From an uncultured Oscillospiraceae bacterium (GTDB lineage: Bacteria > Bacillota > Clostridia > Oscillospirales > Oscillospiraceae): a DNA stretch of 33,071 nt. The position numbers and the translations under genes were made by a program. Where the stretch lies: NCBI GenBank assembly GCA_947627735.1, contig CANQXG010000023.1, forward strand, positions 1 through 33,071, read 5' to 3'. Each line of letters begins with the position of its first letter. Position 1 is the first letter of the stretch. The notes below the pieces were generated by a model. The model was not told where the DNA came from. It did not search any database and saw only the letters and a list, made by a program, of their open reading frames with translations. Below are positions 10,981 to 24,966 of this stretch, one piece after another.

Positions 10981-12693
10981 ATGGAACACATATCACCACC
11001 GACCGGTTATCCGTCCGTCGACAAACCCTGGCTGAAATACTACAGCGACGAGGCAATCAATGAACCTTTGCCCGAGTGTACGATGTATGAGTACCTCTGG
11101 GAGAACAACAAGGACCATCTGGACGATGTGGCATTGGTTTACTTCGGGCGGAAGATCACATACAATACGTTATTCTCGAAAATTGAGCAAACGGCTGTTG
11201 CATTTATAACTGCCGGCGTATCGGCAGGCGATGTTGTTTTAATGACGACTGTAACTGTCCCGGAAACGGTCTATGCGTTTTATGCGCTCAACCGGATCGG
11301 CGCTATCTCTAATATGGCGGACCCGAGAACAAGTACAGAAGGGATACATAAATATGCCCAAGAAGTAAACGCAAAAATAATACTGACCATTGATGTAGCA
11401 TATCCCAAAATAGCAAAAGCCGCTATTGGAACGTCTGTTGAAAAGATCGTCACACTCTCTCCCGCCGATTCGTTGCCTCCGATCAAAAGAGCTGTCTACA
11501 AGGCCACAAATCATCAAGTAAAATCAAATGATAACTATTGTGAAAGCTGGGACGAGTTTATATCATCTTCTAATGGCGACATATGTCTTTCACCTGTAAA
11601 CGCATCGTCAGATTGCTGTGTTATGGTCCATACGGGAGGTACGACCGGAACACCTAAAACCGTAATGCTCAGCAATCAAAATCTTAATACCATGGCAATG
11701 CAGTATGCACTGCTTGGGATCGACATTAGCAGAGAGCAAAATTTTCTCAACATCATGCCGCCATTTATTGCGTATGGCGTCGTGCTTGGAATACACATGC
11801 CTTTGTGTCTTGGGTTGAACGACATCCTCATTCCGCAGTTCGATCCAAGCAAGTTTGCAGACCTTATTCTCAAATATAAGCCCGCGCATTTAGCCGGCGT
11901 GCCAATGCACTATGAGCAGCTTCGGACAAGCCCAAAAGCGAAGAAGGCCGATCTTAGTTTCTTCCGTATGACCGGCTGCGGCGGAGATGGCATGGCGGAA
12001 GGCTTTGAACTCGCTATCAACGAGTTTCTTTTTCAGCACAAATGCAAGTATCCTATTACAAAAGGATATGGCATGACGGAGATCAGTTCGGCCGCAACAA
12101 CCAATAAATTGGAACTCAACAAGCTGGGGAGCGTTGGCATCCCCCATCTAAAGACGACTGTAGCTATATTCGAGATCGGCACAGACAAAGAACTACCCTA
12201 TGGAGAAATCGGAGAGATATGTATGCGTTCTCCTACGGTCATGCTTGGTTACTACAACGCTCCTGACGAAGAAAATAAGGTCCTGCTTAAACATAGCGAT
12301 GGAGAGATTTGGATACACTCCGGAGACATTGGGCACATGGATACGGACGGCTTTCAATATATTAATGGTCGTCTGAAACGTATGATTATCCGCCCTGACG
12401 GCCACAATGTTTGGCCATCACAAATAGAAAATATTATCCTCTCATATCCCGGGGTAGAAAATTGCGCAGTTGTGGGTCTTCCCAATCCGAGCGGAAAACA
12501 CGGAATGATACCTACAGCATTTATCGTCTTAAACGATACCGGGATCACAGCCGACGCCATCGACGCCTATTCAAAAGAGCATCTCCCCGAACGGGATTGT
12601 GCTCTGGACTATCGATTTGTGCAGGACATACCACTCACGCCTATCGGTAAGGTTGACTACCGTGCTCTGGAACGGCAAGCGGCACGAGAATAA
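10981..12693 (+). CDS. Acyl-CoA ligase / AMP-dependent synthetase (ANL superfamily)
   Basis: A 570-residue adenylating enzyme that activates a carboxylic acid as acyl-AMP and probably transfers it to CoA. Motifs are intact: P-loop HTGGTTGTPK (217-226), YGMTE (363-367), SGDIG (447-451), GRLKRMI (463-469, hinge) and the A10 lysine K557 in LTPIGKVDY. No carrier or thioesterase domain is attached. GGGAGG lies eight bases before the ATG. Base composition is far more AT-rich than its neighbours (GC near 48 percent by eye), suggesting horizontal transfer. It is a single-gene unit with its own promoter and terminator, divergent from an XRE regulator. Substrate not predictable; fatty, aryl or bile-type acids are possible. 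Confidence 0.85.
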   Translation: MEHISPPTGYPSVDKPWLKYYSDEAINEPLPECTMYEYLWENNKDHLDDVALVYFGRKITYNTLFSKIEQTAVAFITAGVSAGDVVLMTTVTVPETVYAFYALNRIGAISNMADPRTSTEGIHKYAQEVNAKIILTIDVAYPKIAKAAIGTSVEKIVTLSPADSLPPIKRAVYKATNHQVKSNDNYCESWDEFISSSNGDICLSPVNASSDCCVMVHTGGTTGTPKTVMLSNQNLNTMAMQYALLGIDISREQNFLNIMPPFIAYGVVLGIHMPLCLGLNDILIPQFDPSKFADLILKYKPAHLAGVPMHYEQLRTSPKAKKADLSFFRMTGCGGDGMAEGFELAINEFLFQHKCKYPITKGYGMTEISSAATTNKLELNKLGSVGIPHLKTTVAIFEIGTDKELPYGEIGEICMRSPTVMLGYYNAPDEENKVLLKHSDGEIWIHSGDIGHMDTDGFQYINGRLKRMIIRPDGHNVWPSQIENIILSYPGVENCAVVGLPNPSGKHGMIPTAFIVLNDTGITADAIDAYSKEHLPERDCALDYRFVQDIPLTPIGKVDYRALERQAARE

Positions 12694-12809: not shown

Positions 12810-13520
12810 TCACACCAGCGCGATGACACCGGATATGAGCAGCAGGATATAGGTCAGCAGCAGGAACTTCTGGGCGGATATGCGCTTGGCCAGCCGGCTG
12901 CCCAGCCACACCGCCAGGAGGAAGGGGATGGCCGAGGCGGCCAGCAGCCCCAGCACCTCCGGCACGAAGTAGCCGGCCCGGTAGTGGCTGTACAGAAGAT
13001 AGCTGTTCAGGATCACCCACACCGCCGAGACCGTGGCCCGGAACTTTTCCTTCTCGGGCATGGCCCACACCGCGTACACCACCAAAAACGAGCCGCCGGA
13101 GATGAACATGCCGTGGAACAGTCCCGCCAGGAACAGGCAGCCGTACAGCGCCGCGGCGGGCAGCTTGAACTCCTTGTGGATGAACAGCTTCTTCAGCGCG
13201 ATCAGGATGATGACGGCGCCGTACAGGCGCAAAAGCAGGTCGAAGGCCAGCGTGTCGAACAGCCATATGCCCACCAGCAGGCCGGCGCCCATCAGCAGCG
13301 TGATCTTTCCCAGCTGGCGAAAGTCGATGTCCCGCCAGTGGCGCAGCGCCACATATACGCTGCTGGCGCCGCTGACGATGGCAACGATGGGCTTGGCCGC
13401 CTCCACACCGACCAGGCGGATGGACGGGGGCATGGCCAGCAGAGCGCCGGCAAAGCCCGTGATCACCTGGATGGTGTTGGAGATGAACAGCGTCAGCAGA
13501 AACAGCAGTTTGGAAAGCAT
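12810..13520 (-). CDS. TauE/SafE family membrane transporter
   Basis: A 236-residue polytopic membrane protein with about seven to eight hydrophobic helices. Family features are the N-terminal NTIQVITGFAGALLAMP (residues 15-31), which is the conserved G-F-x-G segment, and the repeated internal half with FLAGLFHGMFISGGSFLVVY near 130-149. TauE/SafE proteins export sulfite, sulfoacetate and related anions or other organic acids. It is the last gene of the operon headed by the AlkP-superfamily enzyme, starting 15 bases after the ATPase gene, and probably removes an anionic product of the pathway. Its ribosome site is weak, fitting coupled translation. Confidence 0.82.
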   Translation of the reverse strand: MLSKLLFLLTLFISNTIQVITGFAGALLAMPPSIRLVGVEAAKPIVAIVSGASSVYVALRHWRDIDFRQLGKITLLMGAGLLVGIWLFDTLAFDLLLRLYGAVIILIALKKLFIHKEFKLPAAALYGCLFLAGLFHGMFISGGSFLVVYAVWAMPEKEKFRATVSAVWVILNSYLLYSHYRAGYFVPEVLGLLAASAIPFLLAVWLGSRLAKRISAQKFLLLTYILLLISGVIALV

Positions 13521-13535
13521 ACCGTCAGCGCCCGG

Positions 13536-14282
13536 TCACCACCACTTGATCTGCTCGGTGATGTGGTTGCGGATGGCGATGAACTCCGGAGAGGTGACGT
13601 CCCGGGGCCGGGGCAGGTCGATCATGACCTCCTCCTTGATCTTGGCGGGCTTGTTGGTGAGGATCAGCACCCGCTGGGCCAGGTACACGGCCTCCTCGAT
13701 GTTGTGGGTGATGAACACCACGGTGGTGCCCGTTTCCTTCCACAGGCGGACCACCTCATCCTCCAGGTAGAAGCGCAGCTTGATGTCCATCTGGCCGTAG
13801 GGTTCGTCCATCAGCAGCAGGTCCGGCTGCATGGCGAAGGCGCGGCCGATGATGATGCGCTGGGCGGTGGACACGGACAGCTGGTGGGGGTAGTTGTTGC
13901 GGAACTCCTCCAGCCCCAGCAGCTTGATGATGTTCTCCACCCGGCGGTTTATCTCGTCTTTCGGCAGCTTCTTGATCTCCAGGCCGAAGCGCAGGTTCTT
14001 CTCCACCGTCAGCCAGGGCATGGAGGAGGGCTCCTGGAACACCACGGAGATGCTGTGCTTTTTCGGGTCGGCGGGTTCGCCGTCGATGTACAGGTCGCCC
14101 TTGGTGGGCATATAGATCCGGGTCAGCAGGTTCAAAAACGTGGTCTTGCCGCAGCCGGTGGGACCCACCACGCACAAAAACTCGCCCTTTTTGATGTCGA
14201 AGGACACGTCGTCCAGCACGTGCAGGCTGCCGAAATACTTCGTCAGGTGCTCCACCCGGACTTTCACATCGTTGTTCTCCAT
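13536..14282 (-). CDS. ABC transporter ATPase, NitT/TauT type, with degenerate signature motif
   Basis: A 248-residue cytoplasmic ATPase of the SsuB/TauB/NrtD class. Walker A is GPTGCGKTT (40-48), the Q-loop VFQEPS (81-86), Walker B LLLMDEP (155-161) and the H-loop His193 in ITHN. The signature, usually LSGGMxQR, reads LSVSTAQR (135-142), and the D-loop region is YGQMD. So it can bind and polarise ATP with its own Walker motifs but offers a poor signature to its partner. The partner ATPase encoded next door has the opposite defect, so the pair likely forms a heterodimer with one canonical site. Confidence 0.85.
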   Translation of the reverse strand: MENNDVKVRVEHLTKYFGSLHVLDDVSFDIKKGEFLCVVGPTGCGKTTFLNLLTRIYMPTKGDLYIDGEPADPKKHSISVVFQEPSSMPWLTVEKNLRFGLEIKKLPKDEINRRVENIIKLLGLEEFRNNYPHQLSVSTAQRIIIGRAFAMQPDLLLMDEPYGQMDIKLRFYLEDEVVRLWKETGTTVVFITHNIEEAVYLAQRVLILTNKPAKIKEEVMIDLPRPRDVTSPEFIAIRNHITEQIKWW

Positions 14283-14297
14283 CTGTGCATGCCCTCC

Positions 14298-15065
14298 TTA
14301 CAGCGCCAGGTCGGTGTTGGCCGACACCTCCGAGCGTATCCGCAAAAACTCCGGGTCGGTCATGTTCCGCGGCTTCGGCAGGCCGTTCAGGTCATAGATC
14401 TGCTTGACGGTCGCCGGGCAGTTGCTCAGAAGCACGATCCTGTCCGCCAGGAACACGGCCTCCTCGATGTTGTTGGTGACGAATATGATGGTGCGCTTTT
14501 CCTGGCCCCAGATGCGCAGGACCTCTTCCTCCATGGCGTACCTCGTCTGGGCGTCCAGGGCGCCGAAGGGTTCGTCCATGAGCAGGATCTGGGGGTTATT
14601 GGTATAGGCCCGGGCGATGCCCACGCGCTGCTTCATGCCGCCGGACAGCTCGTGGGGATAGGAGTTCTCAAAGCCCTGCAGGCCCACCAGGTCTATGTAC
14701 TTCTGGGCGACGGCCCGGCGCTCGGCCTTCTTCACCCCGGCCAGCTCCAGACCGAACTCCACGTTGCCCATGACCGTCCGCCAGGGCATCAGGTTCATGG
14801 ACTGGAACACCATGCCGATGCGCCGGTCGCTGCCGTGGATCTCCTCGCCGTCCAGGAATATCCTGCCGCCCACGGGCTTCTCCAGGCCGGCGATCATGTT
14901 CATCAGCACCGTCTTGCCGCAGTGGCCGGGTCCCAGGATGACCAGAAACTCGTTGTCATATATCTCGAAGGACACGTTCTCCACCGCGTCCTTGACGCCG
15001 TTCTGGACCACGTAGCTCTGGCAGATGTTCTCCAGTCTTAATATGACTTTTTTCTTCTCGTCCAT
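14298..15065 (-). CDS. ABC transporter ATPase, NitT/TauT type, lacking the H-loop histidine
   Basis: A 255-residue ATPase of the same class. Walker A is GPGHCGKTV (45-53), the Q-loop VFQSMN (86-91), the signature LSGGMKQR (140-147, intact) and Walker B LLMDEP (161-166). The H-loop reads VTNN with Asn198 where His is expected. Its signature can complete the ATP site of the neighbouring ATPase, while its own Walker site should be poorly hydrolytic. The frame is open far upstream over the permease gene, but the ATG at 15065 with AAAGGAT is the right start; it overlaps the permease gene by 28 bases. Confidence 0.85.
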   Translation of the reverse strand: MDEKKKVILRLENICQSYVVQNGVKDAVENVSFEIYDNEFLVILGPGHCGKTVLMNMIAGLEKPVGGRIFLDGEEIHGSDRRIGMVFQSMNLMPWRTVMGNVEFGLELAGVKKAERRAVAQKYIDLVGLQGFENSYPHELSGGMKQRVGIARAYTNNPQILLMDEPFGALDAQTRYAMEEEVLRIWGQEKRTIIFVTNNIEEAVFLADRIVLLSNCPATVKQIYDLNGLPKPRNMTDPEFLRIRSEVSANTDLAL

Positions 15066-15853
15066 GGACAGATCATCCTTTCTGCAAACTGCGTTACGAC
15101 GGCCAGTATGGCGCCCACGATGCCGATGGCCACCATGCCCGTCAGCACCAGAGGCATATCCAGCGAATCCATGCCCCGGGAGATGAGGAAGCCCACGCCC
15201 GCGTTGGCGCCCAGCATCTCCGCCGCCAGCACCACCATCCAGGCCGCGCTGGTGGAGGTGCGCACACCGGCGAAGATGGCGTCCAGCGCCGAGGGGAAGG
15301 CGATCTTCATCAGCCGCTGGCGGGGCGTGGCGTTGAACACCGTGCCCACGTCCAGATACATCTTCTCCACGTTGCTCATGCCCGCCTGCACGTTCACCAC
15401 GATGCTGGCCAGGGAGCCGAAGATGACGATCAGCACCTTGGGGAACTCGCCGATGCCGAACCACAGGGTGATCAGGGGGATCCAGGCCAGGGGCGGGATG
15501 GCGCGGAAGGCGTTGAACAGCGGCCCCAGCAGGGCCTTGGCCCGGGGGAACCAGCCGATCAGCACGCCGAAGGCGATGCCGAAGGTCCAGTCGAACAGCA
15601 GCGCCAGACCGATCCGGCGCAGACTTATCAGCACATGGCCGATCAGGGTCAGCTTCTTGACGGGCTTGACGAACAGCTGCACCGTCCGATCCCACACCTG
15701 CGCGGGGGACGGGAAGCCGGTCCCGCTGGAGGAGGCGGCCAGCCACAGAGCGACCAGCAGCAGCACGGATACCACCGGCAGTATTTTATAGAGCACGCTC
15801 AGCCGTTTTTCCCGTATTTCGGCGGCGCTCAGCATTTCCTGCTTCTTACTCAT
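15038..15853 (-). CDS. ABC transporter permease, NitT/TauT type (second subunit)
   Basis: A 271-residue permease with about six transmembrane helices. The family segment FRAIPPLAWIPLITLWFG and the EAA-like cytoplasmic loop ending in KIAFPSALDAIFAG, which couples to the ATPase, are visible. The ATG at 15853 overlaps the stop of the other permease gene (ATGA); a GTG four codons upstream is also open but less likely. It differs clearly from the adjacent permease, so the membrane channel is probably a heterodimer. Confidence 0.87.
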   Translation of the reverse strand: MSKKQEMLSAAEIREKRLSVLYKILPVVSVLLLVALWLAASSSGTGFPSPAQVWDRTVQLFVKPVKKLTLIGHVLISLRRIGLALLFDWTFGIAFGVLIGWFPRAKALLGPLFNAFRAIPPLAWIPLITLWFGIGEFPKVLIVIFGSLASIVVNVQAGMSNVEKMYLDVGTVFNATPRQRLMKIAFPSALDAIFAGVRTSTSAAWMVVLAAEMLGANAGVGFLISRGMDSLDMPLVLTGMVAIGIVGAILAVVTQFAERMICPWTRRKKSY

Positions 15854-16686
15854 AGCTTCTTCCACCCCAATACGAGATTTTCCAGAAGGTTGATGAGCGC
15901 GGAGATCACCACGCCCAGGATGCCGATCACCAGGATGCCCATGATGACCAGGTCAACGCGGCCGTAGGAGCGGCCCATGAGGATCATGTAGCCCAGGCCG
16001 CTGGAGGAGGCCAGCATCTCCGCCGCCACCAGGGTCGCCCAGGCGTTGCCGATGGCCACCTTGATCCCGGCGAAGGTCATGGTCATGGAGGAGGGGATGC
16101 CCACCTTCCAGAATATAGTGAAGTAACTGGCGCCGCAGGTCTTGCCCACGTTCTTCAGCACTTCTTTCGTCTGGCGTATGCCTGTGTAGGAGTTTATAAG
16201 ACAGGGCACGAACGCCGCGAAGAACACGATAAACGCCTTGGCCTGCAGGCCCACGCCCAGCCACACGATGGTCAGGGGTATCCAGGACACGGGCGGGATG
16301 GGGCGGATGATCTCGAAGATAGGACGCATGAAGCTGTCAAAGCCCCGGTACCAGCCCATCAGCCAGCCAAGAGGGATACCGATCAGCACCGCCAGCCCAA
16401 AGCCGCACAGCGCGACCTCCAGGCTGGACCATATATGCACCGGAAGGATGGCCCCGTCCGGTTTTTTGTCGACAAATTTAGTGATGAACAGGCGGAACAC
16501 CTGCAGCACGTCGCTGAGCTTATTGCCCTCGATCACACCGCTGATGGCCAGAAATTCCCACAGCAGCAGGAACCCCAAAATGCCGGCGATGGACAGCATC
16601 GCGCTCTGGTAGGTCAGCTTCCGCTTCTGATCCTGCACCAGCTTTACCCGCTGTTCATTGGTCAGCACGTTCGTCGTCTCGTTCAA
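15850..16686 (-). CDS. ABC transporter permease, NitT/TauT type (first subunit)
   Basis: A 278-residue permease with a long cytoplasmic N-terminus and about six transmembrane helices. IRPIPPVSWIPLTIVWLG near residues 129-146 and the EAA loop KTCGASYFTIFWKVGIPSS near 188-206 mark it as a SsuC/TauC-like subunit. The start is TTG (16686), preceded by GGGAGAG; no ATG with a ribosome site is available nearby. It lies 109 bases after the binding-protein gene, separated by a hairpin that may lower its expression relative to that gene. Confidence 0.86.
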   Translation of the reverse strand: MNETTNVLTNEQRVKLVQDQKRKLTYQSAMLSIAGILGFLLLWEFLAISGVIEGNKLSDVLQVFRLFITKFVDKKPDGAILPVHIWSSLEVALCGFGLAVLIGIPLGWLMGWYRGFDSFMRPIFEIIRPIPPVSWIPLTIVWLGVGLQAKAFIVFFAAFVPCLINSYTGIRQTKEVLKNVGKTCGASYFTIFWKVGIPSSMTMTFAGIKVAIGNAWATLVAAEMLASSSGLGYMILMGRSYGRVDLVIMGILVIGILGVVISALINLLENLVLGWKKL

Positions 16687-16721
16687 ATCTCTCCCTACTT
16701 TCTGCGAAACGGTTTTTCCGA

Positions 16722-16752
16722 TCCCGGACCTGCCGGGAGGGCAGGCCCGGGA
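16722..16752 (-). repeat. Intercistronic hairpin after the binding-protein gene
   Basis: TCCCGG-CCTGCC pairs with GGCAGG-CCGGGA, with one A/C mismatch and a 5-base loop. No T-run follows on the minus strand. Such hairpins after binding-protein genes commonly protect the upstream message and reduce read-through into the permeases; this role is inferred. Confidence 0.5.
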
Positions 16753-16795
16753 CTGCTTGTTCCTTTGCTAAACAGCTGTGCCGGGGAAGGGGATA

Positions 16796-18061
16796 TCACT
16801 CCACGGGGATGCCAAGGATCTCCGCGGCGGCCAGGGCCACGGACGGGTCGATGCGCTGATCGTCCAGGAACTGGGTGCGGTCCTCGTTGGAATAGTTGCC
16901 CTGGCTGATGAAGAAGTCCAGGCCGAGCATGATGTCCTTCTCCACCTCCAGCAGGTCACGCTTGGTGTACAGGCCGGCGTCGTCGGGGCTGGTCTTGGTG
17001 TACAGCTCGATCCACTCCTCGGTGGTGGGGCCGCGGTACCAATCCATGGTGCGCTTAGCCACGTCCTCGTTGCACAGGAAGCCCTCTTCGTCGCAGTGAT
17101 CCAGATACCACTCGGCGGCCTGGGCCATGTTCTCCTCGGAGGCATAGCACCACTCGACGGCCTTGTGGAACACGATGCAGGCGGTCACGACCAGGTCGAA
17201 GTTGTCCTCAAGGATCTCCTGGGTGGCGAAGGTGCCGCAGGCCATGGGGATGCCCAGCTGGCCGGAGTCGGAGATACGCACGTAGCCGGCGTCCTCCGCG
17301 GACAGGGCGATGGCGTTCCAGCAGCCCAGCACGTCGCCGGTGCCGCCGTTGAAGCCGGTGAGGGCGTTGGCGTTATCCATGTTGACGCTCTCCACGTCCT
17401 CCAGGCTCAGGCCGATGTTGGTCAGGAACTTGGCCAGCACAGCCTGGGCGGTGGTGCCGGTGGGATACACGCAGGTGGCGCCCTTCCACAGCTCGGGGTT
17501 CTCCGGGTCGGCCGCGATGTCGGAACCCTCCCGGGCGAACAGAGCCAGGTTCTCCTCAAAGTCGGTGATGTCGATCAGGGAGAAGTCATAGCCCTTCAGG
17601 CCGTTGCACAGGCCGCCCATGCCGCAGGAGGCGATGTCCCATTCGGCGTTGGCTTCCATCATGGCGGGGCCGCCGGTGAAGCAGACATACTCCAGATCGA
17701 TGTTCAGCTTGTCGAACACGCCCAGCTTATCCGCGAACAGGAACGGATAGGAAAGCGGAGAGCCGGTAAAGAAGCCGATCCGCAGGGTCTGGCGCTCATC
17801 GAAGGGGGTCAGGCCCCAGGTCAGGTCCTCGCCCTCCGCCTCGGCGGCAGGCTCTTCCGCGTCGGCGGCGGGTTCCTCCGCGTCGGCGGCGGGTTCCTCC
17901 GCGTCGCCGGAAGGTTCTTCCGCGTCACCGGCGTTGCCGGCGTCAGCAGCGGGCTCGGCAGCGGGTTTGTTCTCTTCCTCGGTCTTGCCGGAGCCGCCGC
18001 CGCAGGCGGCCAGAGAAAAGACCATCACGAGGGCAAGCAGCAGTGCGATCAGTTTTTTCAT
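16796..18061 (-). CDS. Substrate-binding lipoprotein of a NitT/TauT-type ABC importer
   Basis: A 421-residue secreted receptor anchored by an N-terminal lipid. The signal peptide MKKLIALLLALVMVFSLAAC ends in lipobox LAAC with Cys20. Residues 21-78 are an acidic, Ala/Glu/Pro-rich linker with heptads DAEEPAA. The binding domain starts near residue 92 (TLRIGFFTGSPLSYPFLFAD) and continues with FTGGPAMMEAN and SCGMGG, the NMT1/SsuA-like pattern. Several cysteines in the mature part are unusual for a secreted receptor. AGGAGG precedes the ATG. It sits between the racemase-like gene and the permeases, so its ligand should be the operon substrate, not known. Confidence 0.87.
   Translation of the reverse strand: MKKLIALLLALVMVFSLAACGGGSGKTEEENKPAAEPAADAGNAGDAEEPSGDAEEPAADAEEPAADAEEPAAEAEGEDLTWGLTPFDERQTLRIGFFTGSPLSYPFLFADKLGVFDKLNIDLEYVCFTGGPAMMEANAEWDIASCGMGGLCNGLKGYDFSLIDITDFEENLALFAREGSDIAADPENPELWKGATCVYPTGTTAQAVLAKFLTNIGLSLEDVESVNMDNANALTGFNGGTGDVLGCWNAIALSAEDAGYVRISDSGQLGIPMACGTFATQEILEDNFDLVVTACIVFHKAVEWCYASEENMAQAAEWYLDHCDEEGFLCNEDVAKRTMDWYRGPTTEEWIELYTKTSPDDAGLYTKRDLLEVEKDIMLGLDFFISQGNYSNEDRTQFLDDQRIDPSVALAAAEILGIPVE
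17851..17934 (-). repeat. 21-bp tandem repeat coding for the acidic linker
   Basis: Four consecutive 21-bp units, the first two nearly identical and the outer ones diverged, encode DAEEPAA-type heptads between the lipid anchor and the binding domain. Unit number may vary between strains by slippage; the frame is preserved because 21 is a multiple of three. Confidence 0.85.
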
Positions 18062-18103
18062 GTTTTTCCTCCTTAAAGTTGTTTATGGTCGTCGGTCAAA
18101 TAA

Positions 18104-18158
18104 GGCCTGCCGGGGATCCGGTACGCGCCTGTCCGCGCCGCCGGACCCGGCCTGCCGG
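18104..18158. repeat. Direct repeat in the gap between racemase-like and binding-protein genes
   Basis: GGCCTGCCGG occurs at 18104-18113 and 18149-18158, within a very GC-rich 109-base gap between two cotranscribed genes. The gap has no convincing promoter on the minus strand. Related CCTGCC/GGCAGG blocks recur in the hairpin at 16722. Possibly RNA structure that sets relative expression. Confidence 0.45.
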
Positions 18159-18170
18159 ACTCACGTCATA

Positions 18171-19664
18171 TCAGCCGCAGCAGCAGTGGCCTGCGCCGTC
18201 CCGGCTGTGGCTGTCCTGGTCCGGGTCTTTCATGCACAGGTGCACGGCGCCTGTGGTGAACGCCCGGGGCAGGGCCAGGATATTGGGGTGGGGCCCCACG
18301 TACTTCTTCATGGCGTCGGCCAGGGCCTCCTCCACGGTGGCCCGGGTCTTCAGACCCATGCTGCGGGCGATGCCCGGCTCCCGGGCACCCACGATGTAGA
18401 TGGCGCTGGTGTGCTCCTCCGCCAGGTGGCCGCAGCTCATCATGGAGAAGCCGTGGAAGGGATGGAAGGCGTTGGCGAAGCGGTACTTGTCCGTGTACTC
18501 CTTGCGGGTGGCGAAATACTCGCCGTACCGGTCCATGTCCGGCAGGATCTGCATGTAGTCGTGCTGGAACATCTCATACAGCTCCCGCAGATAGGGCCAG
18601 CGCTCGTCGTGGAACCACCCGTCGCAGATGCTGGGCACGATGAACACGCAGTGGTCGGCCATCACCCGCTTGTGGCGGATGACCTGGGCCGACAGGGCCT
18701 GCATCATCTGGATGGGGTTGGTGCCCATGCCGGGGCCGTAGTGGAAGTCGGTGGGCATACCGAACACCATCACGTCGTACTTCTTCTCCGCCCAGTGGAC
18801 GTAGGTGCGCTTGTCGGCCATCTTCCAGCTGATGGGCTGCATCTCCTTGGCCCAGCCGGAGTTGATCTCGATCTGACGGCTCTTGGAGTCCAGCACCGCG
18901 TCGCAGCAGAAGAACTTGTGGCCCATCTTCTCCTCCATCAGCATCCCCTGCTCGTCGAACTTCGAGCGCATGACGCTGTTGGTGGATACGGGCACGAAGT
19001 CCGGCGCGTGCATCACCCGGGGGATGTGGTGGCCGGCGATGGAGCGCCAGTGGGTGATGCCGGTGGCGCAGTGCTTGTACCCGCCGGAGTAGCCGCCGTA
19101 GGGGTTGCCCTGGGTGTGGCCGATGAGGATGGGGATGTCCGCGTCAAAGACGTACTTGTTCATCAGCACATGGTCGCCGGAGGCGGTGAAGCCCAGGTCC
19201 ACCATGTGGTCGTAGTCCTCGCTGTCGTGGCTGGTGATCTGGGCGGTGGGATAGAACTCGTTGAACAGCTCCTCGCCCAGGATGGTGCGCATCTCCTTCA
19301 CGGTGGCCCGGGGATGCAGGCCGTTGGAGATGAGCAGCAGGATGTCCTTCTTCTCCACGCCCGCGGCGTAGAGTTCATCCAGGCAGGCCCGGATGGACAC
19401 CTTCCGGTGGCTGGTGGGCTGGACGCCGCCCTTGACGATGTCGGGGATGACGAACACCACCGTCTTGCCCGGGCCGGCCAGCTCCTTCAGGGAGGGCATG
19501 CCGATGGGGTGGCGGATGGAGTCCAGGGTGGCGGCGTAAAGGCTGTCCCAATCCTGGGGCAGGCAGGGCGGATCGGGCACCGTTTCGCCGGGGATGAACA
19601 CGTCGGTCCAGTCCGGAAGCTGGGCGCTCATCATGCCGTGGCCGTACTCAAAATCCAGTTTCAT
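18171..19664 (-). CDS. LarA-family (nickel-pincer nucleotide) racemase/epimerase homologue
   Basis: A 497-residue protein of the lactate racemase family (DUF2088). In LarA of Lactiplantibacillus plantarum the key residues are His108, His174, Lys184 (covalent link to the nickel-pincer cofactor) and His200. Here His117 in SNGLHPRAT, His183 in IGHTQG, Lys197 in GGYKHC and His213 in AGHHIP fall at intervals of 66, 14 and 16, against 66, 10 and 16, so cofactor binding is expected. It is longer than LarA and ends with HCCCG. Expected reaction: racemisation or epimerisation of a 2-hydroxy acid. AAAGGAG precedes the ATG. No larB, larC or larE is in the window. The neighbours argue against plain lactate. 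Confidence 0.82.
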   Translation of the reverse strand: MKLDFEYGHGMMSAQLPDWTDVFIPGETVPDPPCLPQDWDSLYAATLDSIRHPIGMPSLKELAGPGKTVVFVIPDIVKGGVQPTSHRKVSIRACLDELYAAGVEKKDILLLISNGLHPRATVKEMRTILGEELFNEFYPTAQITSHDSEDYDHMVDLGFTASGDHVLMNKYVFDADIPILIGHTQGNPYGGYSGGYKHCATGITHWRSIAGHHIPRVMHAPDFVPVSTNSVMRSKFDEQGMLMEEKMGHKFFCCDAVLDSKSRQIEINSGWAKEMQPISWKMADKRTYVHWAEKKYDVMVFGMPTDFHYGPGMGTNPIQMMQALSAQVIRHKRVMADHCVFIVPSICDGWFHDERWPYLRELYEMFQHDYMQILPDMDRYGEYFATRKEYTDKYRFANAFHPFHGFSMMSCGHLAEEHTSAIYIVGAREPGIARSMGLKTRATVEEALADAMKKYVGPHPNILALPRAFTTGAVHLCMKDPDQDSHSRDGAGHCCCG

Positions 19665-19691
19665 GTGTCGCTCTCCTTTGTTGTGATGTTC

Positions 19692-20606
19692 TTACTGAAA
19701 GCTGTCGTAGTGGCGCTGGAATACTTTATACACGGCGCTGCTGTCCTGGCCGCCCAGGCCGTCGGCGCTGGCCAGCTCGTTGTACATCTGCACGGTGCCG
19801 GCGATGAAGGAGGGCGCCTTGGCGTCCTTGGCCATCTGCAGGGCCAGCTTGGTGTCCTTCAGCAGCAGGTCCACGGTGAAGGCCGGCGTTTCGAAGGCGT
19901 CGTCCAGGATGCACTTGCCCACCTCCCGGAACAGGCCGCTGACCGTGGCGGCGCTGCTGGAGGCCACGGTGTCGTAAAACACCTTCTTGTCGATGCCCAC
20001 GTGGTCACAGATGGCCATGACCTCGCTGCTGATGGCGTTGATGCAGGAGAACATCATCTGGTTGAGCAGCTTCAGGGCGTTGCCCGCGCCGTGGCCGCCC
20101 ACATGGATGGCGTTGGCGGCGAAGGTGAGCAGGACGGGCCGTGCATATTCCAGAGCATTGGGGTCGCCGCCGGTGGGCAGCATCCACTTGCCCGTGGCGG
20201 AGGGCCGGCCCAGGATGGGGCAGTCCAGATAGGCCGCGCCGGTGGCCTCCACGCCCTCGGCGTTGCGGCGGGTGGTGTCCGGGTCCACGGTGCTGGTGTC
20301 GATGACCACCTGGCCGGGGCGCAGCACCTTCACCATGCCGTTTTCGCCGAACAGCACCTCATCCAGCTGGGCGGGGCCGGGCAGGGACATGATGATGACA
20401 CTGGCCTTCTCCGCCACGCCGGCGGGATCGGCGGCCACCTGGGCGCCCATCTTTCCGGCGCGCTCGGCGGCGGCGGGGAACGCGTCGCAGGCCACCACCT
20501 CATAGCCGGCGTTCAGCATGCTCTCCAGCATGCAGCAGCCCATGCGGCCGCAGCCCACCAGGCCGACTTTTTCGATCTTATCGCTCAATGCGGTCCAGGA
20601 CGTCAT
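19692..20606 (-). CDS. Beta-hydroxyacid dehydrogenase (3-hydroxyisobutyrate dehydrogenase family)
   Basis: A 304-residue NAD(P)-dependent dehydrogenase. The Rossmann loop is VGLVGCGRMG (14-23), the cofactor-side motif DTSTVDP (103-109) and the catalytic Lys179 sits in GAGNALKLLNQ. The substrate loop, normally DAPVSGG-x-x-GA-x-x-G, reads DCPILGRPSATG (128-139), so substrate preference probably differs from 3-hydroxyisobutyrate or tartronate semialdehyde. AAGGAGGTG precedes the ATG at 20606, which overlaps the end of the AlkP-superfamily gene by 29 bases. It likely interconverts a hydroxy acid and a semialdehyde in the same pathway as the LarA-like racemase. Confidence 0.86.
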   Translation of the reverse strand: MTSWTALSDKIEKVGLVGCGRMGCCMLESMLNAGYEVVACDAFPAAAERAGKMGAQVAADPAGVAEKASVIIMSLPGPAQLDEVLFGENGMVKVLRPGQVVIDTSTVDPDTTRRNAEGVEATGAAYLDCPILGRPSATGKWMLPTGGDPNALEYARPVLLTFAANAIHVGGHGAGNALKLLNQMMFSCINAISSEVMAICDHVGIDKKVFYDTVASSSAATVSGLFREVGKCILDDAFETPAFTVDLLLKDTKLALQMAKDAKAPSFIAGTVQMYNELASADGLGGQDSSAVYKVFQRHYDSFQ

Positions 20607-22602
20607 ACAAAACACCTCCTTCAGCATCCTTGGGGACGTCCACGTTCAAAAGCTTCGCCAGGGTCGGCGCCACGTCGATAATCCGGGCGGGGTACTTGCG
20701 CTCATACTTGGGCACCCCCGGACCCACCATCAGCATGCAGGCGTGCATGTCGTGGAGGGTGGGTTCCGCCAGATGGACGCCGGTGAAGTTGCCGCACACG
20801 GCGGAGTAGTCGCCGCCGTTCTCTTCCACGATGTCCTGGATCAGGTCGGGGAAGTTCTTGCACAGCCGGGCCTCCTCGTACAGCTCCCGGTTGGCGATCA
20901 TCCGCTCGGAGCCGTCCCGGTACTTGATGGCGGAGCGGTAGATGAACGGATGGGACATGTAGCCCGGCTTCCAGGCGTACAGCACGTCGCCCACCCGGTC
21001 GTAGCCAGGCCCCTCGTAGATGCCCAGCCGACCGGCCTCCTTCTTCTTCAGGGCGTAGGCCACCACGTTCTCGCCGGTCTCCGGGTTGCGCATGGCCAGC
21101 AGGGTGTTGATGATCTTCTCCTGCACCTTCTCGTAGTCCTCCGGCTCCACGATGCCGTGGGGGTCGCGGCCCTTCAGGTTGATGAAGATGTGGGCGTGGC
21201 AGGGCTCCAGGGGATGGCACATGGTCTTGTCCCAGTCGATGGTCAGGTTGGAGGGGTCGTCCGTGGACAGGTCCAGGTTGTATTTCAGCAGCCCCGCCCG
21301 GGCCAGATGCTCCTTCACGAAGGGGTTCCAGTCCAGATGGGTCATGCCGTGGTCGGAGATGAGCACCACATATGTATCGTCCAGGTCCACCGCCTCCATG
21401 ATCTTGCCGATGTTCTCGTCCACCTGGCGGTAGACCTCCCGGATCATGTGCCAGCAGAAGGGGGCGGTGCGCTCGCTGTACACCCGGGCGGTGGGTTCGA
21501 TGCCGGCGTACAGGGCGTGCTCGATGTGGTCGATGGTGCCCACCCAGGAGAAAGCCATGTCCCACTGCTGGTGCTCCAGCACGTAGCGGGTGGCGTTGCC
21601 CCACCAGTTGGCGTGCAGGCTCAGCTGCTCCAGATACAGATCGGAGTTCATCCACCCGTCCATGAAGGCCCAGGGGTCGTCCACCTCCATGTAGGCGCCG
21701 GCGACCGCCTCCACCTCCTTGCTCAGGCTGGCGGGCACGGAGTAGGGTTCGGCCATGTTGATGGAACTCTGGTAGAGCTTGAAGTCCTTGCCGTCGGGAC
21801 TCAGCTCCAGGATCTGGAAGCGGAACCGGCCGTCCCGCTGGTAGTCCCGGGCGTGGAAGTTTTTGGTGATCCAGGGGCCGTAGTCGCCCATGGTGATGTC
21901 GGTGATGGCCTGGGAGGCGTCCTTGCTCTCGGAGATGAGCATCCGGTCATAGCCGGCGTCGGCGCTGGCGTAGACCAGCACGTACATCTTATAGCCCTCC
22001 ACATAGGTGGGCGGCACGGTGATCTCGAACTGCAGATGGGGCTTTTTGCTCTCCGGCATGTTGCTCCAGCCCTCCGCCGGCTCGGTCTGGACCTGGACGG
22101 CCCGGCCGGGGATCTGGTTGCAGTGCAGCAGCTTGTTGGAGAAGCAGGCGCTGGAGGCCACGTCCCACAGCGGCATGTAGAAATACCGGAACGGCGGGTT
22201 CAAAGACCCGGCCAGCTGGCAGCCGTCCTCCTCGGTGATGGCCCCCATGGGGAAGGTCACCGGCCAGTTGATGAGGGCGGTCTTTTTGCCCAGGCGCTTG
22301 CCCACGTCCCACAGGGTCTCGCACAGCACCTCGTTGCGGTCAAAGGAGGTGTGCCAGTGGTCCAGCTCCTCGCCCTGGTGCTTGACCATCAGGCTGGGCA
22401 CGCCGTTGGTGCCCGAGCCGGCGCCGCTGACGATGGCCGTCCACGCCGCCGCGGTCAGAGGCGGGAAGACGGTCTCCAGCCGGGAGAATACGCCCCGCTG
22501 CATCAGCTTGGCGGTATTGGGCATGGCGCCCTCCGCCACGAACTTCTGCATCAGGTCGGGCATGGCGGCGTCCAGGCCCAAAAACAGTATTTTTTTGTCC
22601 AT
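20578..22602 (-). CDS. AlkP-superfamily phosphohydrolase/phosphodiesterase (COG3379-like)
   Basis: A 674-residue metal-dependent hydrolase of the alkaline phosphatase superfamily, type I phosphodiesterase/nucleotide pyrophosphatase branch. Metal ligands and nucleophile are in order: Asp11 in LGLDAAMP, Thr50 in FPPLTAAAWT, Asp358 and His362 in TIDHIEH, Asp417 and His418 in SDHGMT, and His617 or His620 near the C-terminus before VGPGV. Thr rather than formylglycine-type Cys argues for a phospho- or phosphono-ester over a sulfatase. The inserted region 130-340 is large and unrecognised. No signal peptide, so cytoplasmic. It is the first gene of the operon; AGGAGG precedes the ATG. Confidence 0.83.
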   Translation of the reverse strand: MDKKILFLGLDAAMPDLMQKFVAEGAMPNTAKLMQRGVFSRLETVFPPLTAAAWTAIVSGAGSGTNGVPSLMVKHQGEELDHWHTSFDRNEVLCETLWDVGKRLGKKTALINWPVTFPMGAITEEDGCQLAGSLNPPFRYFYMPLWDVASSACFSNKLLHCNQIPGRAVQVQTEPAEGWSNMPESKKPHLQFEITVPPTYVEGYKMYVLVYASADAGYDRMLISESKDASQAITDITMGDYGPWITKNFHARDYQRDGRFRFQILELSPDGKDFKLYQSSINMAEPYSVPASLSKEVEAVAGAYMEVDDPWAFMDGWMNSDLYLEQLSLHANWWGNATRYVLEHQQWDMAFSWVGTIDHIEHALYAGIEPTARVYSERTAPFCWHMIREVYRQVDENIGKIMEAVDLDDTYVVLISDHGMTHLDWNPFVKEHLARAGLLKYNLDLSTDDPSNLTIDWDKTMCHPLEPCHAHIFINLKGRDPHGIVEPEDYEKVQEKIINTLLAMRNPETGENVVAYALKKKEAGRLGIYEGPGYDRVGDVLYAWKPGYMSHPFIYRSAIKYRDGSERMIANRELYEEARLCKNFPDLIQDIVEENGGDYSAVCGNFTGVHLAEPTLHDMHACMLMVGPGVPKYERKYPARIIDVAPTLAKLLNVDVPKDAEGGVLYDVLDRIER

Positions 22603-22680
22603 TTCATGCCTCCTAAATTTACGAAAACTTATGATTTACGGCAATTCTCTTCCATAAATAGGGATTTTAGTCTTAAAAAA

Positions 22681-22763
22681 TGACAACTTGTCACCGTTTA
22701 TCGTCACATAAAATTGTACAGATGGCACAACCATCTGTCAACAGCTATTTGCCCAAACGTTTG
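22681..22763 (-). promoter_or_regulatory. Promoter and operators of the AlkP-LarA-ABC operon
   Basis: Minus-strand promoter TTGACA (22741-22736), 17-base spacer, TACAAT (22718-22713). An inverted repeat ACAGATGG/CCATCTGT (22718-22738) fills the spacer exactly. A LacI-family-type palindrome CAAACGTTTG with central CG (22754-22763) lies 12 bases upstream of the minus-35, and a third palindrome, TGACAACTTGTCA (22681-22693), lies in the early transcript region. The divergent LacI-family regulator is the natural candidate for the CG-centred site. Confidence 0.82.
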
Positions 22764-22803
22764 CATTGTGTTTCGTAAAAAACGGAGAAAAACCGACTTT
22801 TTG

Positions 22804-22832
22804 TTGTTTTCCCCCGTTCGATATGGTATGAT
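22804..22832 (+). promoter_or_regulatory. Promoter of the LacI-family regulator gene
   Basis: TTGTTT (22804-22809), 17 bases, TATGAT (22827-22832), 64 bases before the ATG. It lies about 40 bases from the CAAACGTTTG palindrome, so autoregulation is possible. Confidence 0.55.
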
Positions 22833-22896
22833 ACACCCACTGTGTCGGTCCCGGGCGCGCTCCGGCGGCCCATCGGGACGAAAGGAGACCCCTGCT

Positions 22897-23958
22897 ATGA
22901 ACCTGAAGGATATAGCGAAGCTGGCGGGCGTATCCGCCTCCACCGTCTCCCGGGTGGTCAACGGCGGCGACACCTCCGCCGCCAGCCGGGAGACCCAGGA
23001 GAAGATATGGTCCGTGGTGCGCATGGAGGGGTACGTCCCCAACCAGACCGCCCGCAGCCTCCGCCAGCCCCAGAGCCAGTCCAAGCGGACCATCCGGGAG
23101 ATCGACTGCGTCTATGCCCGCACCGCCGGCTCCCTGATCGACCCCTTCTTCACCACCCTCATGCACCACGTGGAGGTGGAGGCCATGGCCCAGGGCTATA
23201 ACCTTCGCTACCAGTTCTCCATCGCCGACCTGGAGCCGGAGAAATTCTCCAGCTCCCTGTCCAATGTGGAGGCGGCCATCGTGCTGGGCCGCATCGACGA
23301 GCGGGCGCTGAAGAGCCTGCGCAAATACTACCGCCACCTGGTGTGCACGGGGCTGCAGGAGACGGACTTCCCCGTGGACCAGGTGATCGCCAGCGGCTAC
23401 CGGGCCGCCTACAGCTGCGTGGAGTACCTGATCGCCCTGGGGCACAGGGACATCTGCTACCTGGGAGAGACCATCAACGAGCAGCGCTACCAGGGCTACG
23501 CCGACGCCATGCGCGCCCACGGCGTGGAGGACAGTCTGCCCTATGTGGCCGAGGCGCCGTTCTCCCCCGCCGGCGGCTTTGAGGCGGTCAACCGGCTGCT
23601 GGAGAGCGAGCGGCCCTTCACAGCCATCCTGTGCGCCAACGACATGCTGGCCATGGGCGCCATGAAGGCCCTGCGGGAGCACGGCCTGCGCATCCCCCGG
23701 GACGTGTCCCTGGTGGGCATCAACGACATGGAAACGGTGCGCTATCTGGACCCCATGCTCACCACGGTGCATGTGCCCCTGGAGGAGATGGGCCGCCACG
23801 CGGCGCGGCTGCTCATCGACCGGATCGAGGGCGGCCACAGGCTGCCGGCCAAGGTGATCCTCCCGGCGGAGCTTGTGCTGCGGGAGTCCTGCGGACCCAT
23901 CGGGGACAAGCAGAAAAAGGGAAAGAAGCCCCCCGCGGACGCCGGATCTTCCAAATAA
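22897..23958 (+). CDS. LacI family transcriptional regulator
   Basis: A 353-residue repressor/activator. The N-terminal helix-turn-helix MNLKDIAKLAGVSASTVSRV and hinge helix PNQTARSLRQ are standard, followed by a periplasmic-binding-protein-like effector domain (residues about 62-335) with ILCANDMLAMGAMKAL and VSLVGINDME. The tail is basic (KQKKGKK). AAAGGAG lies before the ATG; the longer upstream reading frame crosses the promoter region and is not coding. It is divergent from the nine-gene operon and probably responds to its substrate or an intermediate. Confidence 0.9.
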   Translation: MNLKDIAKLAGVSASTVSRVVNGGDTSAASRETQEKIWSVVRMEGYVPNQTARSLRQPQSQSKRTIREIDCVYARTAGSLIDPFFTTLMHHVEVEAMAQGYNLRYQFSIADLEPEKFSSSLSNVEAAIVLGRIDERALKSLRKYYRHLVCTGLQETDFPVDQVIASGYRAAYSCVEYLIALGHRDICYLGETINEQRYQGYADAMRAHGVEDSLPYVAEAPFSPAGGFEAVNRLLESERPFTAILCANDMLAMGAMKALREHGLRIPRDVSLVGINDMETVRYLDPMLTTVHVPLEEMGRHAARLLIDRIEGGHRLPAKVILPAELVLRESCGPIGDKQKKGKKPPADAGSSK

Positions 23959-24767: not shown

Positions 24768-24852
24768 TGGTGGGGGAAGGTGGATTCGAACCACCGAAGG
24801 CATTGCCAGCAGATTTACAGTCTGTCCCCTTTGGCCACTCGGGAATTCCCCC
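24768..24852 (-). tRNA. tRNA-Tyr (anticodon GTA)
   Basis: An 85-base class-II tRNA with a long variable arm. The acceptor stem is GGGGGAA/TTCCCCC with an encoded CCA end; the T-loop is TTCGAAT. The anticodon loop CTGTAAA places GTA at 34-36. The top anticodon-stem pair (27-43) is an A/C mismatch, which is slightly unusual. It is second in a two-tRNA unit. Confidence 0.95.
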
Positions 24853-24890
24853 ATATTCTGTTTTCCCCGCCCGGGGGTCTCGGTAAGTTC

Positions 24891-24966
24891 TGGAGCTGGT
24901 AGACGGACTCGAACCCCCGACCTGCTGATTACAAATCAGCTGCTCTACCAACTGAGCTATACCAGC
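24891..24966 (-). tRNA. tRNA-Thr (anticodon TGT)
   Basis: A 76-base tRNA with acceptor GCTGGTA/TACCAGC and encoded CCA. The D-arm is AGCTCAGTTGGTAGAGC and the T-loop TTCGAGT. The anticodon stem GCTGA/TCAGC holds loop TTTGTAA, giving TGT. First gene after the promoter at 24985-25013. Confidence 0.95.

Follow-up and report, generated by a model that had tools for sequence, protein, structure and literature searches.

Which compound is handled by an operon that joins an AlkP-superfamily hydrolase, a beta-hydroxyacid dehydrogenase (HIBADH) and a LarA homologue to an ATP-binding cassette (ABC) importer and a TauE/SafE exporter? This set of nine genes occurs in an uncultured Oscillospiraceae bacterium, on contig CANQXG010000023.1 (positions 1-33,071; assembly GCA_947627735.1, 86% complete), and the whole stretch of 33,071 nucleotides is here called the window. 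A preliminary description of the locus proposed that a hydroxy-acid ester or sulfonate is imported, hydrolyzed and stereo-corrected by LarA, and that an anionic product is exported. The explanation that we consider the best, with a probability of about 45%, is that a C3 compound bearing a substituent X (C3-X) is imported, that HIBADH and, in related operons, a triosephosphate isomerase (TIM)-like enzyme feed the same C3-X intermediate, and that LarA consumes it. Its basis is sequence comparison, namely the conservation of the operon, the subfamily of LarA, the co-occurrence of TIM-like and LarA genes, and the changed phosphate sites of LarA-linked sugar enzymes.

Operon architecture and conservation

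The nine minus-strand genes are tightly packed between 12810 and 22602, with a LacI gene on the opposite strand. All reading frames are open and lie where the preliminary description placed them, and its family names hold in Pfam.

20578-22602, minus strand: AlkP-superfamily hydrolase (PF01663, 674 aa), gene 1 in transcription order
19692-20606 (likely start) or 20627, minus strand: HIBADH, a member of the HIBADH/YihU/GarR superfamily (PF03446 + PF14833)
18171-19664, minus strand: LarA homologue, assigned to the single-catalytic-His subfamily (LarA_Bw / LarA_Sp; PF09861)
16796-18061, minus strand: substrate-binding protein, NMT1 / SsuA-like (PF09084), with a lipoprotein-type start
15850-16686, minus strand: NitT/TauT-type ABC permease 1 (BPD_transp_1, PF00528)
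15038-15865, minus strand: NitT/TauT-type ABC permease 2 (BPD_transp_1, PF00528)
14298-15065, minus strand: ABC ATPase 1 (PF00005); the nearest NCBIfam is taurine ATPase, under its cut-off
13536-14282, minus strand: ABC ATPase 2 (PF00005), with LSVST in the signature
12810-13520, minus strand: TauE/SafE exporter (PF01925), last operon gene
22897-23958, plus strand: LacI-family regulator, divergent from the operon
22713-22741, minus strand: promoter-like TTGACA-17-TACAAT for the nine-gene operon, 11/12 consensus matches
22754-22763, no strand: LacI-type operator core CAAACGTTTG, 12 bases upstream of the -35 box

The nine-gene operon is real but rare, because the full set recurs in a genome from another bacterial family (G312), a close relative (locus L002) keeps it as far as its contig goes, and AlkP turns up in only two genomes among the 391 of the class and in two among the 388 of the phylum, the genome of the window being included each time. 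In G312, all nine families lie on one strand of contig C20 in the order LarA, AlkP, HIBADH, binding protein, permeases, ATPases, TauE. Identity to the window is 53-82% across the eight families compared (AlkP 73%, HIBADH 53%, binding protein 65%, permeases 70% and 67%, ATPases 76% and 82%), and TauE of G312 was assigned by Pfam. L002 has LacI, AlkP, HIBADH, LarA and the binding protein before the contig ends, while a third locus, L072, combines LacI (55%), HIBADH (60%) and LarA with a major facilitator superfamily (MFS) transporter. Chance assembly of the gene set was rejected on the conservation of the same nine families in G312.

For a wider view, 121 LarA relatives were confirmed in a scan of the genome collection and the best 80 kept; counts out of 80 thus describe close relatives only. 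Most of these loci come from metagenome bins and many are cut by contig ends. AlkP occurs in 1 of the 80. Loss of gene order in relatives, which the preliminary description named as a refutation, thus applies to most of the close LarA loci, but the set of genes is conserved in G312 and, up to its contig end, in L002.

The LarA homologue belongs to a subfamily with one catalytic histidine

As regards LarA, the best PDB matches of the window protein are 9q3j (E 7e-252) and 9q2u (E 3e-233), with the next at 1e-18; ordinary LarA structures reach no better than 1e-18, and their alignments lie mostly in the N-terminal domain. From the parts of PMC12611868 considered here, we infer that 9q3j is LarA_Bw of Blautia wexlerae and 9q2u (like 9q3k) LarA_Sp of Streptococcus plurextorum. 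The same parts describe a LarA subfamily with one catalytic His, the second being replaced by Asn, and with glycolysis-like genomic neighbors. Judged by full-length alignment, active-site residues and the glycolysis-like neighbors, the window LarA is a member of this subfamily. The catalytic His, the Asn in place of the second His, the Lys that binds the nickel-pincer nucleotide (NPN), the Ni-ligand His and the His-Tyr-His substrate-site residues are all present (H117, N187, K197, H213, H308, Y309 and H404), and each is kept in 81/81 relatives. PMC12611868 is not consistent in numbering the nickel-ligand His of LarA_Sp, which appears both as 211 and as 221 (sections 2.4 and 2.5); in the window LarA, the equivalent of 211 is His (81/81 relatives) and that of 221 is Phe (80/81). 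Its C-terminus ends in HCCCG (18171-18200), a Cys-rich tail that is not universal, since many relatives align only to about residue 480.

The canonical lactate racemase (5huq, 6c1w) shares the N-terminal NPN domain (Lar_N) with the window LarA; however, the latter is without the second catalytic His, and the alignment covers only residues 48-264 or so. Moreover, none of the NCBIfam LarA equivalogs (LarAH14/15/16, MAR, LarAH10 and LarA) is reached, the best score being 168.8 bits against a cut-off of 740. A role as lactate-type racemase was set aside on the active-site residues.

These residues bear directly on the pathway of the preliminary description, in which AlkP hydrolyzes an imported hydroxy-acid ester and LarA racemizes the freed 2-hydroxy acid for HIBADH. 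The gene content fits the family names, and relatives of HIBADH use hydroxy acids. Nevertheless, Asn stands in place of the second catalytic His in the window and in all 81 relatives aligned, LarA_Sp gave no lactate racemization (section 2.5 of PMC12611868), and neither the near-constant TIM-like partner nor the hexose modules discussed below fit such a route. Since the protein falls in the single-His subfamily, the substrate of which was still open as of November 2025 according to the parts of PMC12611868 considered, stereo-correction of a 2-hydroxy acid is improbable. Of the function first proposed, the operon, the importer and the exporter are supported and the sulfonate-like option is plausible, while the racemase role of LarA is not supported.

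With respect to the cofactor, contig C25 of the own genome carries larC with larB- and larE-like neighbors (larB and larE named by eye), and LarC matches occur in 8 of the 13 class genomes with a LarA of this type. A LarE search of seven genomes gave one match and missed G006, which has LarC; it is therefore no test of NPN synthesis. The plasmid search returned only distant LarA proteins (9 records, <60% identity).

TIM-like and HIBADH genes as apparent alternative partners of LarA

What accompanies this LarA elsewhere? The neighborhoods were counted by profile search of all open reading frames, with profiles built partly from loci later counted. A codon-score gene map missed genes (TIM in 62 loci versus 70 by profile search), and most cluster names in the locus map were given by eye, Pfam or NCBIfam being run on some representatives. 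A TIM-like gene is present in 70 of the 80 LarA loci and lies within 400 bases of LarA in 69; the same 70 are kept at E 1e-60, and all carry TIM-like motifs. The sugar enzymes comprise class II fructose-bisphosphate aldolase (FBA, 47 loci), pyrophosphate (PPi)-type phosphofructokinase (PFK, 45), NagB-like (39), NagA (34) and phosphoglucose isomerase (PGI)-like proteins (13). Other feeders are split transketolase (12) and two types of transaldolase (5 and 3), and the transport and sulfur genes include TauE (35), NitT/TauT-type permease (43), sulfatase (5) and anSME-like radical S-adenosylmethionine (SAM) proteins (4). At E 1e-60, several counts are lower, among them those of FBA (44), TauE (32), the permease (38), sulfatase (3) and anSME (3). 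Typical arrangements are NagA-NagB-FBA-PFK-TIM-LarA-TauE, GH3-FBA-TIM-LarA-TauE-PFK-PGI and transaldolase-TIM-LarA. The isolates Flavonifractor sp. An82 (L038) and Pseudoflavonifractor phocaeensis An507 (L057) are examples with NagA-NagB-FBA-TIM-LarA-PFK-TauE. Loci with transketolase, short-chain dehydrogenase/reductase (SDR), alcohol dehydrogenase (ADH), Rpe and AraD carry a two-permease, two-ATPase importer of the same type as the window. Ten loci are without a feeder module in the profile table, several of them being short contigs.

TIM-like and LarA belong together. Among the 391 class genomes, the TIM-like gene is found in 12, all of them among the 13 with this LarA type, and the exception is G312 (hypergeometric 6e-22, not corrected for kinship, five genomes sharing one genus). 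Eighteen class genomes have any LarA match at E 1e-20; the five excluded are partial matches (2e-22 to 6e-21).

HIBADH occurs in 2 of the 80 loci. The ten loci without a TIM profile match are L002, L003, L004, L029, L032, L037, L072, L073, L074 and L079, and eight of these genomes hold a TIM-like gene elsewhere; the search found none in the genomes of L072 (HIBADH-LarA-MFS) and L073. Because the TIM-free genomes G312 and L072 carry HIBADH-LarA, HIBADH seems to take the place of TIM in LarA operons. Judging by these genomes, the data suggest that the two enzymes yield the same product.

LarA switched between HIBADH and sugar feeders during its history. In a tree of 82 LarAs, the HIBADH-linked label needs four changes, at least three of which are forced by supported branches. 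HIBADH-linked LarAs are scattered over three or more separate positions between those of sugar type, gains and losses being indistinguishable. With midpoint rooting, the LarAs of G312 and L072 diverge early, and that of the window nests among sugar-type or feeder-less loci. LarAs from Chloroflexota- and Spirochaetota-labelled bins (L027, L030, L035 and L028) are nested among those of Clostridia, which suggests transfer or mis-binning.

The own genome contains sugar-type genes as well. Contig C34 carries FBA-PFK-TIM-like-TauE (L096:9200-13148), cut by the contig end and with no LarA in that stretch. Contig C7 has NagA-NagB and a divergent NitT/TauT-like permease and ATPase (L124:6617-10239), at the contig end and with no LarA there. 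As the window LarA is the sole match in the assembly (one copy), it is the only candidate there for both the NagB-NagA and the FBA-PFK-TIM-TauE routes.

LarA might also act on the imported sugar or on another C5-C6 intermediate rather than on a C3 piece, with the TIM link merely marking sugar operons. In sections 2.4 and 2.6 of PMC12611868, an extra mass or ligand of 316.5 Da in LarA_Sp is reported and a speculative phosphorylated aldose was modelled, which favors such a substrate. LarA, however, is constant while the hexose, transaldolase and transketolase modules change, and no sugar-processing enzymes are found among the recognized genes of the HIBADH-LarA operons. This is the least probable of the alternatives weighed here.

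Changed phosphate sites in the LarA-linked sugar enzymes

If LarA handles a C3 piece, what is its substituent? The residues compared below are those with phosphate-binding or catalytic roles in the E. coli or animal enzymes (for TIM, Ser211 and the loop 8 Gly-Gly, and likewise for NagB, PGI and FBA). The TIM-like proteins (63 rows) keep the catalytic residues (His95 in 61/61 and Glu165 in 62/62 non-gap cells) and most of loop 6. Ser211 is changed to Gly in 62/62, loop 8 mostly reads ALTRFxGEIGFY, and an N-x-K-R start motif is present in 51/63. The ordinary TIM of the own genome keeps GHSE, YGGS and GGASL. Similarly, the NagB-like proteins have gaps at loop residues 43-44 in 48/48, His or Gln for Lys208 in 46/48, and Ile, Ser or Val for Arg172 in 47/48; the catalytic residues Asp72, His143, Glu148 and Asp141 are kept in 34, 33, 33 and only 6 of the 48, respectively. 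In the PGI-like proteins, AKNFET replaces SKTFTT (12/12). FBA keeps SHGSS (42/45) and NVDTDIR (45/45) on the C1-phosphate side.

Because the phosphate sites of the TIM-, NagB- and PGI-like proteins are changed and the C1-phosphate side of FBA is kept, the C6 substituent of the LarA-linked hexoses is probably not phosphate. The pattern fits a 6-X-hexose that would be phosphorylated at C1 and cleaved to dihydroxyacetone phosphate (DHAP) and glyceraldehyde-3-X. The TauE exporters, NitT/TauT-type importers, sulfatases and anSME-like genes make sulfonate or sulfate a natural candidate for X, and the loci of NagA/NagB type would fit N-acetylglucosamine (GlcNAc)-6-sulfate. In L020, L021, L023 and L067, the surroundings of LarA include sulfatases and/or anSME-like radical SAM genes, which points to sulfated glycans.

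HIBADH, AlkP and the compound imported by the operon

Which compound enters in the window operon, where no hexose module is present? HIBADH carries the motif GRPSA in the window, L002, L072 and G312, compared with GRTSA in E. coli YihU and GGEPKA in GarR. GRxSA is the anion-binding loop of 3-sulfolactaldehyde (SLA) reductase, where it presumably binds the sulfonate. A YihU homologue, DhpA, oxidizes 2,3-dihydroxypropanesulfonate (DHPS) to SLA in Desulfovibrio sp. DF1, as described in the parts of PMC9594981 used here.

AlkP scores 117.5 bits in its family (PF01663; cut-off 23), and its N-terminus has no signal-like or hydrophobic stretch. D11, T50, D358, H362, D417 and H418 are kept in 4/4 aligned homologues and H620 in 3/4, and we take them to be metal or nucleophile residues. 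A PDB search with AlkP gave only a weak C-terminal match to PafA; its AlphaFold model has a mean pLDDT of 46 and was not used for fold search.

X could be a phosphonate, or the substrate a phosphodiester, with AlkP as the key enzyme and LarA handling the carbon remainder. Phosphonoacetate hydrolase belongs to the same superfamily as AlkP. Moreover, a distant AlkP (34%) in G456 (L122:4688-11517) has an NMT1-type binding protein on one side and a NitT/TauT-like ATPase and permease on the other, and a class-V aminotransferase with PhnW among its NCBIfam matches lies nearby. That aminotransferase, however, is below all the listed family cut-offs, gene calling on the 18.9 kb stretch of G456 gave no LarA, and, as stated above, AlkP is found in a single one of the 80 LarA loci. 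We regard this option as unlikely.

The importer and exporter of the preliminary description stand. TauE scores 88.8 bits against a cut-off of 32.6 for PF01925, and the importer parts match the NMT1 binding protein, two permeases and two ATPases in Pfam, with no listed NCBIfam cut-off reached. In ATPase 2, LSVST replaces the usual LSGGQ-type ABC signature, as read in the translation; the two ATPases of the importer may therefore differ functionally. The suggestion of a sulfonate-like substrate is plausible.

Comparison with known sulfur routes

A similar logic is known from the sulfo-Embden-Meyerhof-Parnas (sulfo-EMP) pathway for sulfoquinovose, encoded by the E. coli yih genes. It likewise comprises isomerization, C1-phosphorylation and aldol cleavage to DHAP and a C3 oxyanion aldehyde, with a HIBADH-family enzyme for SLA. 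Unlike sulfo-EMP, the LarA-linked loci use PFK of PPi type, class II aldolase and NagB/PGI, and they end in the TIM-like protein and LarA without an SLA reductase. Some LarA loci, with transaldolase or split transketolase and in part RpiB, resemble the sulfo-transaldolase (sulfo-TAL) and sulfo-transketolase (sulfo-TK) routes of Firmicutes such as Faecalicatena. The window operon shares with the DhpA route (PMC9594981, in the parts used) a YihU-like HIBADH, which there oxidizes DHPS to SLA; that route, however, ends with SlaB and SuyAB, whereas the Pfam matches of the operon include neither an aldehyde dehydrogenase nor the SuyAB family.

A word search of a 2026 sulfoquinovose review (PMC12890257) and of the Faecalicatena paper (PMC11659671) gave no occurrence of racemase, LarA, TauE or triosephosphate. 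PMC12611868 gives the neighbors of LarA in general terms and no substrate; neither the AlkP-HIBADH-ABC-TauE context nor the changed TIM/NagB/PGI phosphate sites appear in its sections 2.1 to 2.6. Searches of open-licence PMC papers that combined LarA with sulfonate terms, SLA enzymes, GlcNAc-6-sulfate breakdown or glyceraldehyde sulfate returned no such pathway among the matches listed, and within that scope the earlier remark that no described pathway has this gene set stands.

Proposed pathway and the reaction of LarA

Collectively, these data lead to the following model. The NitT/TauT-type importer would take up a small 2,3-dihydroxypropyl-type compound in which X is an oxyanion other than phosphate; the likeliest candidates are a sulfonate, for instance DHPS, and a sulfate ester. 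The compound may enter as an ester that AlkP would open in the cytoplasm. HIBADH would then oxidize the C3 unit to an aldehyde or ketone (SLA or 3-hydroxy-2-oxopropyl-X), which the single-His, nickel-pincer LarA would consume. In the relatives, aldolase cleavage of 6-X-hexoses and the TIM-like isomerase would give the same intermediate. Likewise, the NagB-NagA and FBA-PFK-TIM-TauE loci of the own genome would deliver it, and several feeders would converge on LarA as their final step.

How might LarA consume this intermediate? We tentatively suggest, as a possible although doubtful answer, that LarA draws a hydride onto its cofactor and that the C3-X bond then breaks, giving a carbon product at the level of methylglyoxal together with sulfite or sulfate, which TauE would export. 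Such cleavage would account for the lack of any further dedicated enzyme common to the hexose-type loci, and also for the frequent exporter of sulfite type. The broader proposal is less likely than this, and we hold it with corresponding reserve. Here, the single-His subfamily would be a nickel-pincer-dependent C-S or C-O-S lyase that releases sulfite or sulfate from a C3 fragment. Several pathways for 6-sulfated or sulfonated sugars, with GlcNAc-6-sulfate among these, would have it in common as their final enzyme, and in the window operon it would serve the breakdown of a C3 organosulfur compound.

Almost as likely as cleavage is that LarA only isomerizes or epimerizes C3-X (for example an enantiomer of glyceraldehyde-3-X, or an aldose to a ketose), or moves hydride between two substrates, and that the intact organosulfur compound leaves through TauE. 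The activities of LarA homologues given in the excerpts used of PMC7583248 and PMC11770544 are racemizations and epimerizations, and the structural study of the single-His proteins puts forward a one-way racemase or epimerase (section 2.5 of PMC12611868). Moreover, the part of PMC9594981 used here has E. coli sulfoglycolysis exporting DHPS intact. Conversely, an extra isomerization after TIM brings no obvious gain, and among the clusters present in at least 10 of the 80 loci none was recognized by eye as a product-using reductase or dehydrogenase. The transketolase-type loci, however, do have SDR and ADH genes.

Returning to the shared C3-X intermediate and its consumption by LarA, several points weigh against the model or its sulfur chemistry. 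To our knowledge, no LarA enzyme breaks a C-S or C-O-S bond. The model also contains a conflict of direction: use of the TIM product by LarA requires HIBADH to oxidize at C2, whereas use of the aldehyde would make TIM superfluous in the sugar operons. L073 has LarA in a genome without a TIM-like match and in a short locus without HIBADH, and AlkP has no place in the operons of TIM type. As for HIBADH, it is under every NCBIfam equivalog cut-off listed; it scores 156.5 bits against the SLA reductase YihU (cut-off 348) and more, 168.5 bits, against L-threonate dehydrogenase (cut-off 350), and among PDB entries tartronate semialdehyde reductase matches it best, YihU coming second. The NagB-like cluster is mixed, since about a third of it is also without catalytic residues. 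Five of the 13 LarA genomes (G120, G188, G214, G279 and G304) gave no LarC match, although two of the five are 99-100% complete, and this is awkward for an obligate nickel-pincer enzyme. Finally, TauE is only mildly enriched around LarA (25 genes, 0.038/kb within 5 kb, versus 12 genes, 0.024/kb beyond), the 5 of 80 loci with sulfatases were counted without a background control, and X could be another oxyanion instead of one of the sulfur type.

Putative promoter and operator, and flanking genes

Is the operon one regulated unit, as first described? In transcription order, the intergenic gaps are -29, +27, +109, +109, -16, -28, +15 and +15 bases, so the overlaps between genes are confirmed; that between the two permeases shrinks from -16 to -4 with an in-frame ATG of permease 2. 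Several starts are preceded by a ribosome-binding-like sequence. The promoter-like element is the sole such match in 22500-23000, where shuffling gives a mean of 0.5 (sd 0.7), a result that is weak by itself; L002 has identical hexamers and spacing. In the window, L002 and L072 alike, exactly 12 bases separate the end of the core resembling CAAACGTTTG from the -35 box that follows. The description as a single conserved operon linked to LacI is supported. Another operator candidate, a perfect palindrome of 21 bases at 22718-22738, was set aside; the own genome has no second exact copy and L002 does not keep it, and the upstream core is preferred for this reason.

Beyond the operon, an AMP-binding ligase gene (PF00501) at 10981-12693 on the plus strand converges on TauE, and the 2 kb blocks that cover it have 55-57% GC versus 59-69% elsewhere in the window. 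On the other side are tRNA-Tyr and tRNA-Thr genes (24768-24966, minus strand), followed by a Glu/Leu/Phe/Val dehydrogenase-family gene (25118-26434, plus strand).

Implications

With the operon and its relatives at hand, the search for the substrate of single-His LarA can concentrate on C3 compounds whose oxyanion is not phosphate, and the TIM-like protein and HIBADH emerge as partners that could make this substrate in vitro. If the sulfur reading is true, gut Clostridia, and some Chloroflexota-labelled bins, would possess an unrecognized route for sulfated or sulfonated sugars, maybe releasing sulfite or sulfate. If LarA is indeed a lyase, the LarA superfamily would have in it a first member that is not an isomerase, and the sugar pathways that it serves would be ones so far undescribed.

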